Assembly: GCA_029254215.1 (NCBI GenBank)
Contig: JAQWYA010000218.1
Location: forward strand, 1 to 59,684
DNA: 59,684 bases
Direction of reading: 5' to 3'
Origin: Pseudorhodobacter sp.
GTDB taxonomy: Bacteria; Pseudomonadota; Alphaproteobacteria; Rhodobacterales; Rhodobacteraceae
Shown here: one piece after another, positions 51,261 through 57,101 of the stretch
Numbering within the stretch: the first letter of the stretch is position 1
Layout of the letters: each line of letters starts with the position of its first letter
Translations under genes and position numbers: made by a program
Notes under the pieces: generated by a model
Told to the model about the DNA's origin: nothing
Database searches by the model: none
The model's input: the letters and a program-made list of their open reading frames with translations, nothing else

Positions 51261-52736
51261 ATGACCCTTCCTCACCCGATCCAGTTTGTCGAAACCGATC
51301 TGGAGGCTCTTGCCTCTTACACCGGGCGGATAGCCCTTTTGGTGCCCGATCAGGCGACCTCAGCCCGTGGGCAGGGTGCGCGCAGGCTGAACCGTCTGAC
51401 CAAGGGCGCGGTGAACCGCTTTCTCGGCTCCGACGCGTTTGCCGCACTGAAAACCGGCGATGCGGCCGAGATCGGCTGGCCCACAGGGCTGGAGGCGGAG
51501 GCTATCCAGGTGATCAAGACCTCCACTCGCAAGGATGTGGGGCTGGCGCGCAAGGCCGGGGCGGCGATTGGGGCCAAGGCCGGGAAATCCGGGGTTCTGG
51601 TGGTCGCGGGAACGGCCCCCCTTGCGGCGGAAATCTCATTCGGGCTGGCGCTGCGCGCCTATGCTTTCGAGGCCCGCAAAAGCCGCAAGGCCGATCCGGT
51701 CGGCAAGATTTCGATGATGCTGGACAATCCGACCGAGGCTGCCGCACAGGCCGCCCCGCTGGCCGCCTTGGCCGAAGGCGTGTTCTTCACCCGTGATCTG
51801 GTGAACGAGCCTGCCAATATTCTGACCACCACCGAATTTGCCAACCGCCTTGCCGCCATGCGCGACATTGGCCTTGAGGTCGAGGTGCTGGAGGAAGACA
51901 AGCTGGCCGAACTGGGCATGGGGGCGCTTTTGGGCGTCGGCATGGGGTCCGAGACGCCCTCCAAAGTGGTTGTAATGCAGTGGAAGGGCGGGACGGAAGG
52001 CGAGGCGCCCTTTGCGCTGGTCGGCAAGGGGGTTGTCTTTGATACGGGCGGGATCTCGATCAAGCCGGCGGGCGGCATGGAAGAGATGACGATGGATATG
52101 GGCGGCGCAGGCGTTGTGTCGGGCGTCATGCGGACGCTGGCTTTGCGCAAGGCCAAGGCCAATGTTGTGGGGCTGGTGGGCCTTGTTGAAAACATGCCCG
52201 ATGGCAAGGCGCAGCGTCCGGGCGATGTTGTGACCTCGATGAAAGGCGACACGATTGAGGTGATCAACACGGATGCCGAGGGGCGTTTGGTGCTGGCCGA
52301 TGTGCTGTGGTACGCGCAGGAACGCTTCAAACCCACCGGAATGATCAACCTTGCGACGCTGACCGGCGCGATCATCGTGGCGCTTGGCCATGAAAACACA
52401 GGTGTTTTCAGCAATGATGACGCGCTGTGCAACGCCTTCCTGAAAGCTGCCGCCGCCGAGGGCGAAGGCGCGTGGCGGATGCCGATGGGCGATGCCTATG
52501 ACGCCAAGCTGAAATCACGCATCGCTGACATGATGAACGTTGGCGGGCGCGATGGCGGGGCGATCACGGCGGCGCAATTTCTCAAGCGCTTCGTGAAGCC
52601 GGAAACCCCTTGGTGCCATCTGGACATCGCGGGGACCGCGCTTGTCAAAGCCCCCACGACCCTTGCCCCCAAGGGCGCGACAGGCTGGGGCGTGATGGCG
52701 CTCGACCGGCTGATCCGCGACAAGTTTGAGGTCTGA
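51261..52736 (+). CDS. pepA: Leucyl aminopeptidase
   Basis: Cytosol M17 aminopeptidase of 491 residues with two metal ions. The family signature is NTDAEGRLVLADVL. GKGVVFDTGGISIKPAGGMEEMTMDMGGAG holds the metal-binding Lys and Asp residues (GKGVVFDTGG and MTMDMGGAG), and the C terminus has GATGWGV. AGAG in the start region is a weak ribosome-binding site 8 bases before ATG 51261. It is divergent from lptF and followed after 3 bases by holC, a conserved pairing. Confidence 0.97.
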   Translation: MTLPHPIQFVETDLEALASYTGRIALLVPDQATSARGQGARRLNRLTKGAVNRFLGSDAFAALKTGDAAEIGWPTGLEAEAIQVIKTSTRKDVGLARKAGAAIGAKAGKSGVLVVAGTAPLAAEISFGLALRAYAFEARKSRKADPVGKISMMLDNPTEAAAQAAPLAALAEGVFFTRDLVNEPANILTTTEFANRLAAMRDIGLEVEVLEEDKLAELGMGALLGVGMGSETPSKVVVMQWKGGTEGEAPFALVGKGVVFDTGGISIKPAGGMEEMTMDMGGAGVVSGVMRTLALRKAKANVVGLVGLVENMPDGKAQRPGDVVTSMKGDTIEVINTDAEGRLVLADVLWYAQERFKPTGMINLATLTGAIIVALGHENTGVFSNDDALCNAFLKAAAAEGEGAWRMPMGDAYDAKLKSRIADMMNVGGRDGGAITAAQFLKRFVKPETPWCHLDIAGTALVKAPTTLAPKGATGWGVMALDRLIRDKFEV

Positions 52737-52739
52737 GCC

Positions 52740-53216
52740 ATGGCAGTGGTGATGTTTTACCACATCACCCGCTCCAGTCTGGAGCAGACGGCGGCCAATC
52801 TGCTGACCCGCGCGCTTGGCGCGGGTTGGCCCGTGATGCTGCGCGGAACAGAAGCGGAAAAGCTGGACCAGCTGGATCAGGCACTTTGGCTTGGCCCCGA
52901 AGACGGGTTCTTGCCGCATGGGCGTGAAGGCGGGCCCCATGATGCGTTGCAACCGATCCTGCTGGGAACTGGCCCCATCGCCAATCAGGCCCGCGCCCTG
53001 ATGATGATCGACGGGGCCACCTTCACCCCGCAAGAGGCGGCAAGCCTTGAACGGGTCTGGGTGTTGTTCGATGGTCTGGATGAGGCGGCCGTAGCCAAGG
53101 CCCGAACGCAATGGAAGGCCGCCACCGCCGCTGGTCTTTCTGCGCAATACTGGTCGGAAGAGGACGGGTCTTGGGCCAAGAAGGCCGAGGCAACGCCTCC
53201 GGCCGCAAAGGCATAA
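52740..53216 (+). CDS. holC: DNA polymerase III subunit chi
   Basis: The chi subunit joins the clamp loader to single-strand-binding protein. The 158 residues match HolC: VMFYHITRSSLEQTAANLLTRAL at the N terminus, GWPVMLRGTEAEKLDQLDQALW, and FLPHG. The C-terminal tail is Ala/Pro-rich. It starts 3 bases after the pepA stop, so the two are co-transcribed. It converges on the UreE-like gene across a 23-base gap. Confidence 0.93.
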   Translation: MAVVMFYHITRSSLEQTAANLLTRALGAGWPVMLRGTEAEKLDQLDQALWLGPEDGFLPHGREGGPHDALQPILLGTGPIANQARALMMIDGATFTPQEAASLERVWVLFDGLDEAAVAKARTQWKAATAAGLSAQYWSEEDGSWAKKAEATPPAAKA

Positions 53217-53239: not shown

Positions 53240-53809
53240 TTAGAATGGCCCGTCGCTGTTATGCGGCGCCGGGGCGGTTTCCGGCGCTGAGTCTGGGGCA
53301 GGGGCCTCGGGCCGGGCAATCTCGCGCGGGGATGGCTGCGCAAGCCCGTGGCCGGGCGCAGGGACCGCTACTTTGTCGTTCAGAATCTCGGGAAAGAACG
53401 GGCCGCGACGGCGCGTTACCTCTGCCCCCATCTGGCGCAGATAAACTTCCAGATCATCGTTGTGATAGGTCAGAAGATGATCGGATTCGACCTGACAATG
53501 CATCCGGAGCGCGCCGATATGCCAAGCAATCCGCGCAAGATCACCCCGCACTTCCATCAGCTCCGCCGCCACAAACCGGATCTGGAGGAGGCGGCCATCG
53601 TCCAGCACAAAGCCAAGTGCTGCATCAAGCCGGGTGCGTTCGGAAAACTCGGCGACGAAAGGTTCGCCCTCGTCCGTCTCGAATTCTCGGATCCGGACCG
53701 TCCGATCCCGAGGGGTCAGGGTCACGGTCCCGGCGAACACAGGCGGCTCTGTCGCGTCCGAGGGCGGCGCGGGGTAAATCAGGCTTCGGGCGGTCGGCAA
53801 TGCGGTCAT
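53240..53809 (-). CDS. UreE-like protein, orphan, with altered metal-site histidine
   Basis: From ATG 53809 (GGAAAG 6 bases upstream) it has 189 residues. Residues 28-135 follow UreE, the nickel-binding urease accessory protein: GTVTLTPRDRTVRIREF, DDGRLLQIRFVAAELMEVRG, ARIAWHIG and LRQMGAEV align with the family. In UreE the conserved HxGNRHxP carries the bridging histidine. Here it reads HIGALRMH, placing Arg102 at the histidine position and His104 two residues later. The C-terminal tail is Pro/Ala-rich with no histidine run. No urease gene is in the window. Nickel delivery is doubtful, and another role is possible. Confidence 0.75.
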   Translation of the reverse strand: MTALPTARSLIYPAPPSDATEPPVFAGTVTLTPRDRTVRIREFETDEGEPFVAEFSERTRLDAALGFVLDDGRLLQIRFVAAELMEVRGDLARIAWHIGALRMHCQVESDHLLTYHNDDLEVYLRQMGAEVTRRRGPFFPEILNDKVAVPAPGHGLAQPSPREIARPEAPAPDSAPETAPAPHNSDGPF

Positions 53810-53895
53810 GTAGCGCTTTCCATCTGCCAAAGGCTTCTGCGATCAGCCTAGACCTTGCCCGCCGCCTGATAAAGCCCCAAGCCCGGCCGAAACGC

Positions 53896-53919
53896 AAAAG
53901 GCCGGGCGAAAGCCCGGCC
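53896..53919 (-). terminator. Rho-independent terminator of the DUF1127 gene
   Basis: GGCCGGGC (53900-53907) and GCCCGGCC (53912-53919) form a perfect 8-bp stem around GAAA. Read on the minus strand four Ts follow (53899-53896). It lies about 40 bases downstream of the DUF1127 stop. Another GCCCGGCC nearby (from about 53881) could pair in the alternative. Confidence 0.85.
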
Positions 53920-53961
53920 GCATCGCTGTTGGCTTGCGCCAAACCGCCTTTGACTGTGGGC

Positions 53962-54183
53962 TTACATGAAGCCCTTGCCAGCGAACAAACGCTGGATTTC
54001 ATCGGAGCGCGTCACGCCGCGCTCGGCCAGTTCCTCATCCGAGGTGGCGTTGAGCTTGTTGATCTTGGCGGTCAGCGGGCCAGCCTCGGCCAGCAGGACC
54101 AGAAAGTTCCAGAACATCACGAAAGGACGCGCCAGAATGTCGAGAACGTGCACAGAGGTCGTTGTCGAAGTCGTAAAAGCCAT
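53962..54183 (-). CDS. DUF1127 (YjiS-like) small protein
   Basis: A 73-residue protein. The last 40 residues match DUF1127, with LNATSDEELAERGVTRSDEIQRLF, the arginine-poor version of the usual LSDRELADIGLTRSDI pattern. The N-terminal half has a Thr-rich start and a hydrophobic stretch (PFVMFWNFLVLLAEAG). DUF1127 proteins bind RNA in phosphate and carbon metabolism in related bacteria; that is family knowledge only. AAAGGG lies 7 bases before ATG 54183. A perfect GNRA-loop terminator follows. Confidence 0.85.
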   Translation of the reverse strand: MAFTTSTTTSVHVLDILARPFVMFWNFLVLLAEAGPLTAKINKLNATSDEELAERGVTRSDEIQRLFAGKGFM

Positions 54184-54236
54184 TTGGAAACCCTTTGTAT
54201 GCGTTAGGTATTTCTCCCTTGGCCTCTATTTGCGCC

Positions 54237-54256
54237 CTTGCACCCTATTGTGCAAG
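54237..54256. other. Hairpin-forming inverted repeat between the DUF1127 gene and the small unknown gene
   Basis: CTTGCAC (54237-54243) and GTGCAAG (54250-54256) form a perfect 7-bp stem with a 6-base loop. CCTTGCACGGG recurs about 20 bases further. It could be a 5' leader hairpin of the DUF1127 gene or a terminator without a T-run. Confidence 0.4.
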
Positions 54257-54325
54257 TGCAGCATTGGTCTTCCTGCCTTGCACGGGATGCATAGCTTGGG
54301 CTTCATTCGGTTGGATGGAATGGAC

Positions 54326-54757: not shown

Positions 54758-56464
54758 TCAAGAGGAAAGTTGCTCTCTCAGCACCGCTGCCGTGATCGAG
54801 ATCATCAGATAGACGCCCGCGAAAATTAGCATCGCCACCACGGTGTTTTCAAAGGCGCGCGGGTAGGCGGCCTCATCTGGGGTGATGGGTTTCACGGAAA
54901 GCGACAGATAGCGGGTCTGACGATTGGCCTCGGCGCGAGTGGCTTCCATCGCTTGCAGCGATTGCGCCAACATCAATTGTCGGGTCGTCACATCGGCCTG
55001 TGCGACCAGAAGTTCCGATTGCACCTGCGCCAAAGACATGCCCGAGCCGTCGTTCTCGGTCAATTTGGAGCGGAGCGCCTCAATCTCGAACTCCAGCGCT
55101 TTGATGCGGCGTTGAAGCGGTTCCACCCTTGCGGCATTGGGGTTGGCGTTCGCTTGCAACTGCTGCATCGACAGTCGGTCTTGCGTCAGCAAGGATTCAA
55201 GCTGACCGATCTGCGCGGTGATCAGGCTGACCTCCACCTCAGAGGACAGAACCTTGAATTGTTCCTGCAGGGCCACAACGCGCCGCTGGGCCTCAAGCAT
55301 GTCAGCTTCGGTTTCGGCATAGGCCTCGCGGGCGCCTTTCATCTGATCTTCGCGCATCCGCTGGGTCAGTTGATCCACCTGACCCTCGGCATAACCGATC
55401 AGGGCTTGGGCAAATTCAACGGCCTTGGTCGGGTCGGCAGCAAGGATCTGCATTTTGACCAGACCTTCGGTCGGATCATAAGAAATCTGCACATTGCGCG
55501 TATAGACTTTATAGGCCTGCTCCAGCGTGGCATCGGGCGCCAGCCGCTGAATAGGGTCGATCGAGGGGTCGCTGAAATGATCCTTGAAGCCATGATCCTC
55601 ATCAAGCCGCAGCATCGCCTCGCGCGATTGAAGGTAACCCTGCACCGCGATACTGTCTTGCGAGGTCGCAAGGGGCGAGCCTTTGAGCAAGCCTCCCAGC
55701 CCGCCCGCAGAGGCAGTGGGCGCCTGCGATTGCTGAATAACGAATTCCGACTTGGTGGCATAGATCGGGGTGGCGACCTCGTAATAATACCAGCCTGTGA
55801 CCAGCGTCGGCAAAAAGACAAAGCAAATCAGGCGGACCAACAGCAAAAAGGAATTGCGGCGGCGGCGGCGTGCGATGTCTTGCTGGATCCGCGACAGTTC
55901 GGCCAAGGGGTTCGGCGACACCATTTCGGTTGACGGAACCTGCGCTGGTTTGAACGTTTGGGGCAGCTTGATGCCGTCGGGCGCGGCTTGTTCCCCTTTG
56001 GCGGGGCCCGCGCCGGACAAGGCCCCGTCGCTGGTGACCAGTTCCAAAAGGCTCGTGCGTTCAAACGGGTCAATGCCCGCATTGCGCAGCAGACGGACGG
56101 CGTCGAAATCAGAGGTGGCGGGCAGATTGTGCTTTTGGGCCAACCGGCGGGCCATGCGCAACTGACGGCCCGTCAGGCCCTCGCGCTTGATCTTCTCGAT
56201 CCCTTCGCCCGCACTATCGCCATTGGCCCCAACCACTTCGCCTTTTTTGGCACGCAGAGGGGCCGTCGGTTGCAAAGACAGGGCTCCGAAGCCGTCGTCA
56301 TGGTTGTCGAACAGCTGCGCGCCCGTGGTTTGCGGCGGCGGCGGGGGCGCTCCTGCGGGGGTAAGGGCGGCACTTGCGACAGGAGGAACGGGCGCAGGGG
56401 CCTCGGCGCTGGGAAATTCCGGGCGGCGGGTGCGAAAGCGTGTGAGTTTAAGTTTGGTAGTCAT
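54758..56464 (-). CDS. Capsule polysaccharide export inner-membrane protein (KpsE/BexC-like) with long N-terminal extension
   Basis: Polysaccharide co-polymerase of 568 residues. ATG 56464 lies inside the KpsT stop region (17-base overlap). The first 200 residues are cytoplasmic: a Pro/Ala-rich stretch, then LTGRQLRMARRLAQKHNL and DAVRLLRNAGIDPFERTSLLELV. A first membrane segment (about LVRLICFVFLPTLVTGWYYY) is followed by the large periplasmic coiled-coil region (EAQRRVVALQEQFKVLSSEVEVSLI) and a C-terminal membrane segment (VVAMLIFAGVYLMISITAAV). Typical KpsE is about 380 residues, so the extension is the odd feature. It would bridge KpsMT to the outer-membrane pore. Confidence 0.88.
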   Translation of the reverse strand: MTTKLKLTRFRTRRPEFPSAEAPAPVPPVASAALTPAGAPPPPPQTTGAQLFDNHDDGFGALSLQPTAPLRAKKGEVVGANGDSAGEGIEKIKREGLTGRQLRMARRLAQKHNLPATSDFDAVRLLRNAGIDPFERTSLLELVTSDGALSGAGPAKGEQAAPDGIKLPQTFKPAQVPSTEMVSPNPLAELSRIQQDIARRRRRNSFLLLVRLICFVFLPTLVTGWYYYEVATPIYATKSEFVIQQSQAPTASAGGLGGLLKGSPLATSQDSIAVQGYLQSREAMLRLDEDHGFKDHFSDPSIDPIQRLAPDATLEQAYKVYTRNVQISYDPTEGLVKMQILAADPTKAVEFAQALIGYAEGQVDQLTQRMREDQMKGAREAYAETEADMLEAQRRVVALQEQFKVLSSEVEVSLITAQIGQLESLLTQDRLSMQQLQANANPNAARVEPLQRRIKALEFEIEALRSKLTENDGSGMSLAQVQSELLVAQADVTTRQLMLAQSLQAMEATRAEANRQTRYLSLSVKPITPDEAAYPRAFENTVVAMLIFAGVYLMISITAAVLREQLSS

Positions 56465-57101
56465 ACATCCGCTTCGCTTCTTCCAAAGTGTCAAACAAGT
56501 GCAATTGGCCGTGCCGCAGAACGGCGGCGGACCGGCAAAACTTCTCCAGCGTGGACGGCTGATGCGAGACCACAACCATCGTCGCATTCTGCAGCCGCGC
56601 CTTGAGGATCTCTCCCGCTTTGCGGTTAAATTCCACATCCGTAGAGGCGGGCATCCCTTCGTCGATCAGATAGATGTCGAATTCCAGTGCCAGCATCAGA
56701 GCCAGTGAAAACCGCGCTCTCATCCCCGAGGAATAGATCCCCGTCGGCATGTCGAAATATTCTTCAAGGTCGGCAAGCCAGCGGCAGAAGCTTTCGACGT
56801 AATCCGGGTCAAGGCCGTAAAGCCGCGCGATGTAGCGGCAATTTTCCCGCGCGCTGTGTTTGGCCATGAGCCCGCCCATGAAGCCTAGCGGAAACGAGAT
56901 CCGGGAACTGCGGGTGACCTTGCCTTCATCGGGTTTTTCCAGCCCGCACATCATATTGATGATCGTTGTCTTGCCGGTGCCATTGGGGGCCAGAATGCCA
57001 AGCGAGTTGCCGATTTCCACGCGGAAAGAAGCGCGATCAAGGATGACCTTGCGCTGTTTGCCCGTCCAGAAAGACTTGCTGACGTTCTGAAACTCGATCA
57101 T
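56448..57101 (-). CDS. Capsule polysaccharide export ABC transporter ATP-binding protein (KpsT-like)
   Basis: A 217-residue ATPase from ATG 57101 (MIEFQNVSKSFWTGKQR). The Walker A motif is LAPNGTGKTTIINM, the signature is YSSGMRARFSLAL, and Walker B is DIYLIDEGMPASTD, the form seen in KpsT/RfbE-type transporters. The H-loop is VVVSHQ. It would power export of a capsule or similar polysaccharide with a KpsM permease. No permease or other capsule gene is in the window; the KpsE-like gene follows with a 17-base overlap. The frame runs open to 57149 without support. Confidence 0.88.
   Translation of the reverse strand: MIEFQNVSKSFWTGKQRKVILDRASFRVEIGNSLGILAPNGTGKTTIINMMCGLEKPDEGKVTRSSRISFPLGFMGGLMAKHSARENCRYIARLYGLDPDYVESFCRWLADLEEYFDMPTGIYSSGMRARFSLALMLALEFDIYLIDEGMPASTDVEFNRKAGEILKARLQNATMVVVSHQPSTLEKFCRSAAVLRHGQLHLFDTLEEAKRMYDYQT

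Follow-up and report, generated by a model that had tools for sequence, protein, structure and literature searches.

A UreE-like gene lying tail to tail with holC in a Pseudorhodobacter sp. genome is most probably a remnant of an earlier urease operon; its product has lost the nickel site, and purifying selection seems to have kept the gene. The gene lies in the window, by which we mean the whole stretch of 59,684 nucleotides that was analysed (positions 1 to 59,684 of contig JAQWYA010000218.1, assembly GCA_029254215.1, here G000, of 242 contigs). In the scenario that we favor, a urease operon with the order ureD-A-B-x-C-E-F-G would have lain between kpsE and holC, and an ancestor of Pseudorhodobacter would have lost all of it except two genes, x and ureE. 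Urease would now be made from another operon elsewhere in the genome, with an ordinary ureE of its own. Presumably freed from nickel delivery, the leftover UreE kept its predicted fold and lost both the G-N-R-H nickel site at the dimer interface and the tail motif GGAYGxGRTxGHxH. The relic, as we call the leftover gene, would then have stayed under purifying selection in several species and disappeared from others. We infer that the operon was lost and that the relic no longer hands nickel to urease as UreE does. Coordinates are collected in Table 1; we take the plus-strand neighbor to be holC, as did the preliminary description of this stretch, and the pepA-like and kpsE-like names are those that we presume from the sequence.

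Table 1. Features of the holC-kpsE interval in window coordinates, followed by the loci of short UreE_C proteins in other genomes
Feature	Position	Strand	Remark
pepA-like leucyl aminopeptidase (presumed)	51261..52736	+	syntenic anchor
holC, DNA polymerase III chi (presumed)	52740..53216	+	convergent neighbor, syntenic anchor
UreE-like relic gene	53240..53809 (stop included; 53243-53809 coding)	-	189 aa + stop; UreE fold = residues 4-144
C-terminal tip DGPF	53243..53254	-	-[GD][DG]PF in 4/4 relatives
Pro-rich tail, residues 142-185	53255..53386	-	mostly low model confidence
HIGALRMH, residues 97-104	53498..53521	-	in place of H-x-G-N-R-H-x-P
Arg102	53504-53506	-	column equivalent to His96 of K. 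aerogenes UreE
Gap between the two relic genes	53810..54325		516 bases; ureC between their counterparts in Szabonella alba
Second relic gene, 105 aa	54326..54643	-	homologue of gene upstream of ureC in some urease operons
kpsE-like capsule-export gene (presumed)	54758..56638	-	syntenic anchor, opposite side
UreE_C mini-protein, L199	G046:C14:228705-229043
UreE_C mini-protein, L200	G262:C1
UreE_C mini-protein, L201	G114:C310:2282-2596
UreE_C mini-protein, L202	G016:C12:393049-393387

The translation of the gene, MTALPTARSLIY...WHIGALRMHCQVE...NSDGPF*, is one of several overlapping open frames, among them one of 320 aa on the plus strand (53245-54207), and it is homology that marks the minus-strand frame as the gene. 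Given that the three sister proteins described below begin alike (MTDFPTARRLL, MTDLPVVKCLL and MSNLPPCRRLR), its start is likely the ATG at 53809. The UreE-like identity first proposed for the product is borne out by family profiles and by its predicted fold. Pfam UreE_C matches residues 89-141 over its cut-off (E=1.8e-8; 35 bits against 23), and NCBIfam UreE NF009758 matches residues 25-141 (E=3.6e-24) with 85.4 bits, far under the equivalog cut-off of 237. Pfam UreE_N has no match in the window protein, and the sisters score 25.5, 21 and none against its cut-off of 26.9. An AlphaFold (AF2) model built on an alignment of 56 related sequences (pLDDT 85.6, pTM 0.70) has ten-residue confidence means of 89-98 up to residue 140 and of below 50 in the tail at 151-161. 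The structure prediction that had been proposed as a check thus yields the two-domain UreE fold: 14 UreE entries of the PDB match the model with Z from 16.3 to 12.7, 1gmu and 1gmv being the best, and among the matches listed everything above Z 8 is UreE, the first other entry following at Z 7.0. The fold is shared over 132-139 residues (Z 12.7-16.3) with UreEs encoded in urease operons, namely those of Klebsiella aerogenes (1gmu/1gmv), Proteus mirabilis (9zlo), Sporosarcina pasteurii (1ear) and Helicobacter pylori (3tj8), and the relics keep the first motif His and the D71, G72, G89, F138, P140 and E141 columns of such proteins. They differ from them in lacking GNRH and most of GGAYGxGRTxGHxH, in having no adjoining urease genes and, for the window protein, in falling under the equivalog cut-off.

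The gene had been described as an orphan, and it does lie outside any urease cluster; it is also the only UreE_C match in a Pfam search of the assembly. Yet the cell has another UreE. The ureC of G000 is at the start of contig C107, and the sequence past it reads MADFIAHSVRSAGDWEGAADRCVLTYDERFLRRKV... for 49 residues before it runs off the contig end; this product shares 60% identity with the beginning of an ordinary UreE and has no match to the window protein in alignment. That start of an ordinary ureE after ureC rules out the window gene as the sole UreE and makes it an extra copy. UreF was not found over its cut-off in the G000 assembly, which fits an assembly gap beyond the end of C107.

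The argument for an operon origin comes from synteny and collinearity. In the window and in three sister genomes, G201, G202 and G203, all Pseudorhodobacter, the gene is flanked by pepA-holC on one side and by a kpsE-like gene on the other. In Szabonella alba (L168) a complete urease operon fills the stretch from holC to kpsE, in the order lptF-pepA-holC-[ureG-F-E-C-x-B-A-D]-kpsE; the whole operon, ureE included, has the relic's orientation with respect to holC. The earlier remark that the window gene sits beside holC and not beside urease is correct, in that no urease genes are nearby and holC, 23 bases away, is convergent with it; since a urease operon fills this very interval in Szabonella alba, the position is explained by descent. 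The Szabonella UreE (L018/L168), which is also the best non-relic match to the relic profile, differs from the relic in belonging to a complete urease operon, in keeping HIGNRH and in carrying 15 His in its tail.

A second gene points the same way. Upstream of the relic lies a small gene whose product has a weak phasin-like match (NF045536, E=0.023) and no Pfam family over its cut-off, and which is 40% identical (E=5.6e-22) to the product of the Szabonella gene between ureB and ureC. A copy in G202 is 45% identical to it, and none was found in G201 or G203. Along the minus strand the window reads small gene, 516 bases, relic ureE, holC, which is the Szabonella order minus ureC and all other operon genes. 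A tblastn search found no ureC remnant in the 516 bases. When the holC-kpsE interval was searched for ureA, B, C, D, F and G in the four species with the relic and in two without it, no match reached E<=0.1, the best match of a urease gene other than UreE having an E of 0.14.

The association of the small gene with urease extends beyond Szabonella. A profile of it has a match no more than 800 nt upstream of ureC at 13 of the 92 ureC loci with room for it, a count that represents 12 distinct genomes (L119 and L168 are the same genome, and the 92 include some genomes twice) and that is slightly low, the first of two matched pieces having been taken and L113 (568 nt) missed as a result. The homologue is 11-154 nt from ureC in 12 of the 13 loci and 450 nt away in the other; two more, at L175 and L186, lie more than 800 nt from ureC and outside the 13. 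Urease loci with a copy just upstream of ureC include L168 (11398-11718), L169, L105 and L145. In the present Pseudorhodobacter operon, as found in G000 and G201, ureB abuts ureC directly and the small gene is absent between them.

The parent arrangement, with a urease operon in the holC-kpsE interval, is seen in one genome only, that of Szabonella. By HolC, Szabonella is not the closest relative of the window, with 56% identity against 65-68% for G051, G091 and G022 among the matches listed, and in 15 other genera the stretch around holC has no ureC, relic or second relic (two of these contigs, in G114 and G118, stop about 1.1 and 0.6 kb past holC). The shared position therefore needs either several losses or a transfer.

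What sets the relics apart from ordinary UreE is the nickel motif. In the passages of PMC13044922 and PMC7055735 that deal with it, the GNRH motif lies at the UreE dimer interface, its His binds nickel across the dimer, and this His is essential for urease activation. When the window protein is aligned with K. aerogenes UreE (1gmv), no gap interrupts the motif and Arg102 falls on His96, although the match is weak when taken alone (E=0.33). The replacement of the bridging His that had been reported for the window copy thus holds, and a better alignment that would restore the His is ruled out, given that the G202 sister has a His in that very column without a gap. Arg itself is not the fixed change. 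The four motifs are HIGALR in the window, HLGALN in G203, HLGTLH in G202 and HFGALN in G201, so that G-N-R-H has become G-[AT]-L-x in all of them, with x being R, N, H and N; what the four have in common is the loss of the N-R pair, and the H is gone from three. HxGNRH occurs in 116 of 116 distinct ordinary UreE proteins (identical copies removed, and a further orphan, from G111, set apart) and in none of the four relics. The D and V of the helix after GNRH are gone from all four relics as well. A set of 51 ordinary proteins has 57 columns in which at least 85% of them agree; 22 of these columns are kept by all four relics and 32 by the window copy.

One could suppose that the relic still carries metal through other ligands, for example His97 and the extra His104, or the short runs of His that the sisters have, but we consider this improbable. 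His97, the first motif His, is present in all four relics and in 51 of 51 ordinary copies, yet the bridging ligand is another residue, and that His97 never varies would fit a structural role. The His two residues beyond Arg102 to which attention had been drawn is present in the window copy, but its column reads H/H/Q/L across the four relics, so it is not a conserved new ligand. The missing C-terminal His tail was likewise only partly confirmed. In the window copy 2 of the 48 residues that follow F-x-P-E (residues 142-189) are His, whereas the three sisters have 6, 4 and 7; ordinary copies have a median of 7 and a minimum of 1, so that a poor His tail alone is not unusual. In the parts of PMC7055735 that treat K. 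aerogenes UreE, the His tail binds most of the nickel, although nickel delivery does not need it. Most of the GGAYGxGRTxGHxH tail motif (GAYG) is lost in the relics, as read from a tail alignment that is unsure. The suggestion of repurposing stands in part: this is a UreE homologue outside a urease cluster, without the bridging His and apparently selected, and it may hold another metal or none.

The distribution of the relic bears on whether it still serves urease. A search of the genus gave matches in eight of nine Pseudorhodobacter genomes, of which G000, G201, G202 and G203 have the relic and G199, G200, G204 and G205 have urease and no relic; in the ninth, G198, none of holC, relic and UreC was found. 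Relic and urease occur together in G000 and G201. For the marine isolate Pseudorhodobacter sp. E13, PMC6554599 reports ureABC, ureDEFG and urtABCDE. In G202 and G203, whose assemblies are 87% and 84% complete, neither UreC nor an ordinary UreE was found, a hint that the relic may last in species that lack urease. The holC of G202 (L045 2716-3161) reads in two frames, a frame shift that may be a sequencing error. With four Pseudorhodobacter genomes having the relic and four lacking it, and with none in the stretch around holC of the 15 other genera, the idea that the changed motif might be fixed across the holC neighbors of Rhodobacterales does not hold.

These co-occurrences in G000 and G201 could be read as a sign that the relic is a pseudo-chaperone acting on urease, in which it would pair with ordinary UreE or with UreG and tune nickel delivery; PMC7055735 describes UreE as a working dimer that binds UreG. 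We doubt this reading, because G202 and G203 have the relic with no UreC or ordinary UreE found in their incomplete assemblies, and because four urease-bearing species do without the relic.

Of the 163 relatives that a profile built from the four relic sequences found in genome contigs, the best 80 were examined: three are the relics of G201-G203, and the other 77 have WHxGNRH and lie beside ureC and/or ureF. In a draw of 394 family genomes that left out G202 and G203, the same profile gave 278 bits for G201, 270 for G000 and 157.9 for the best other among the matches listed, the Szabonella UreE. It found no relative in viral contigs, and a scan of genome contigs with the single protein confirmed none. 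A comparison by eye of the matches listed placed UreE less than 20 kb from holC in G000, G026 and G037 only. In G037:C69 (L178), holC immediately follows ureG, both genes being on one strand, and no pepA was found within the 19.5 kb taken, so this is a different arrangement. A literature search on orphan or paralogous UreE and on the urease of Rhodobacteraceae and Pseudorhodobacter found no report of the relic among the papers listed.

Selection seems, from the comparison of coding sequences, to have preserved the relic in several related species. The four frames are open, with no stop in any, at amino-acid identities of 37-58%. The dN/dS values are 0.17-0.22 among the sisters, 0.22-0.57 between the window and the sisters and 0.17-0.49 for the ordinary UreEs of the genus, and 0.28 for the second relic gene between the window and G202; all are rough, given that dS is near saturation (1.1-2.3, and about 1.6-2.2 for the sisters). 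A decaying, functionless gene whose frame is not yet broken seems unlikely to us. It would account for the window copy, the fastest of the relics with a dN/dS of up to 0.57 and the longest end branch (1.45), and for the absence of the relic from G199, G200, G204 and G205. Against it, the four open frames and the sister dN/dS of about 0.2 argue that the gene is not dead, and in a simple simulation of random replacement one copy stayed stop-free in just 0.5-8% of runs. The window copy taken by itself could be beginning to decay.

The tree of UreE proteins is weaker evidence for an operon origin than gene order is. It has 120 rows (one of 121 was dropped as too short for the core), few columns and one long branch. 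The four relics form one clade with support 100/100 beside Szabonella and others, and a 100/96 branch parts them from the ordinary UreEs of Pseudorhodobacter. Holding the relics with Szabonella gave a likelihood 15.8 above that of the free search and a p-AU of 0.83. A grouping of the relics with six ordinary UreEs of Pseudorhodobacter was rejected (p 0.0001), a rejection that is inflated because the free trees do not unite those six in a clade. With three such UreEs (L042, L040 and L043) the AU test gave no rejection (p 0.20). An origin of the relic by duplication of the ureE that serves urease in the genus, followed by a move to holC and divergence, is allowed by this last grouping but is very unlikely, given the 100/96 branch, the rejected six-member grouping with its caveat, and the fact that a moved ureE would neither bring along a second urease-operon gene in collinear order nor by itself land in the interval that holds the Szabonella urease operon. 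Returning to descent in place, a species tree from pepA and holC, with Szabonella as sole outgroup, has the window species basal in the genus. As the relic is absent in two pairs, (G200, G205) and (G199, G204), one ancestral presence followed by two losses fits.

If the relic is selected and does not deliver nickel, its C-terminus may offer a clue to its role. The relic tails vary in length and sequence, yet all four end in -[GD][DG]PF (SDGPF, SGDPF, RGDPF and SGDPF as the last five residues), which none of 117 other distinct UreE-type proteins does; a conserved tip on an otherwise variable tail points to a docking peptide. We tentatively raise the possibility that the relic is a UreE-fold dimer that presents a disordered, -PF-tipped tail to another protein, and so is an adaptor and not a metallochaperone. 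HolC binds the C-terminal tip of SSB. The relic resembles SSB in ending in P-F after a disordered tail, and its gene is beside holC, which might lead one to a narrower version in which a metal-free dimer, with a role that has nothing to do with nickel and kept even where urease is lacking, docks its tip on a peptide pocket, possibly that of an SSB-tail reader such as HolC. This narrower version is a long shot. The SSB of the same genome ends SDMDDEIPF, whereas the relic tip is hardly acidic and has no acidic run before P-F, and the Szabonella alba UreE tail already contains ...EKGPFTG at its end, so that the -PF tip may be inherited.

From the perspective of metallochaperone function, the relic can be regarded as a natural experiment, in which a gene of a lost operon stayed in place and kept its fold, and the nickel-bridging motif is gone. 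The likely parent arrangement in Szabonella, the relic and the present ordinary UreE together allow testing of which parts of UreE serve nickel and which have another use. The case is also a warning for annotation, in that a UreE match in a gene remote from urease should not be taken as a sign of nickel delivery.

Other UreE-like genes were seen in further genomes. In another genus of the family, G111:C58 (L019; L182 9448-9963, minus strand) encodes a full-length UreE-like orphan, WHLGRRQAAVQIE, in which the bridging His is changed to Gln (WHLGRRQ); its neighbors look to us like ilvD, LysR and Calvin-cycle genes. It resembles the relics in being full-length, away from urease and changed at the bridging His in a genome that also has an ordinary ureE. 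It differs in its place and in its part of the tree, and so is an independent case. A UreE_C-like stretch, WHLGLRRVPCEF, lies away from the ordinary UreE of its genome in G300:C126 (L197). Four further loci (L199, L200, L201 and L202) encode mini-proteins of 105-117 aa that consist of UreE_C only, with no N domain, and that score over the Pfam cut-off. Their motif, RGDLVxAALC[VI]G[QR]F[HR]APCQI, has Cys in place of the first His and keeps the bridging His in three of the four, and an ordinary UreE is present in all four genomes. We take their neighbors to be a pyrC-like and a glycosyltransferase-like gene in every case and a pyrE-like gene in three, the G114 contig being short. Mini-protein matches of at least 170 bits occur in 3 of 198 genera, a draw to which G262 does not belong, and the next best match has 70 bits.
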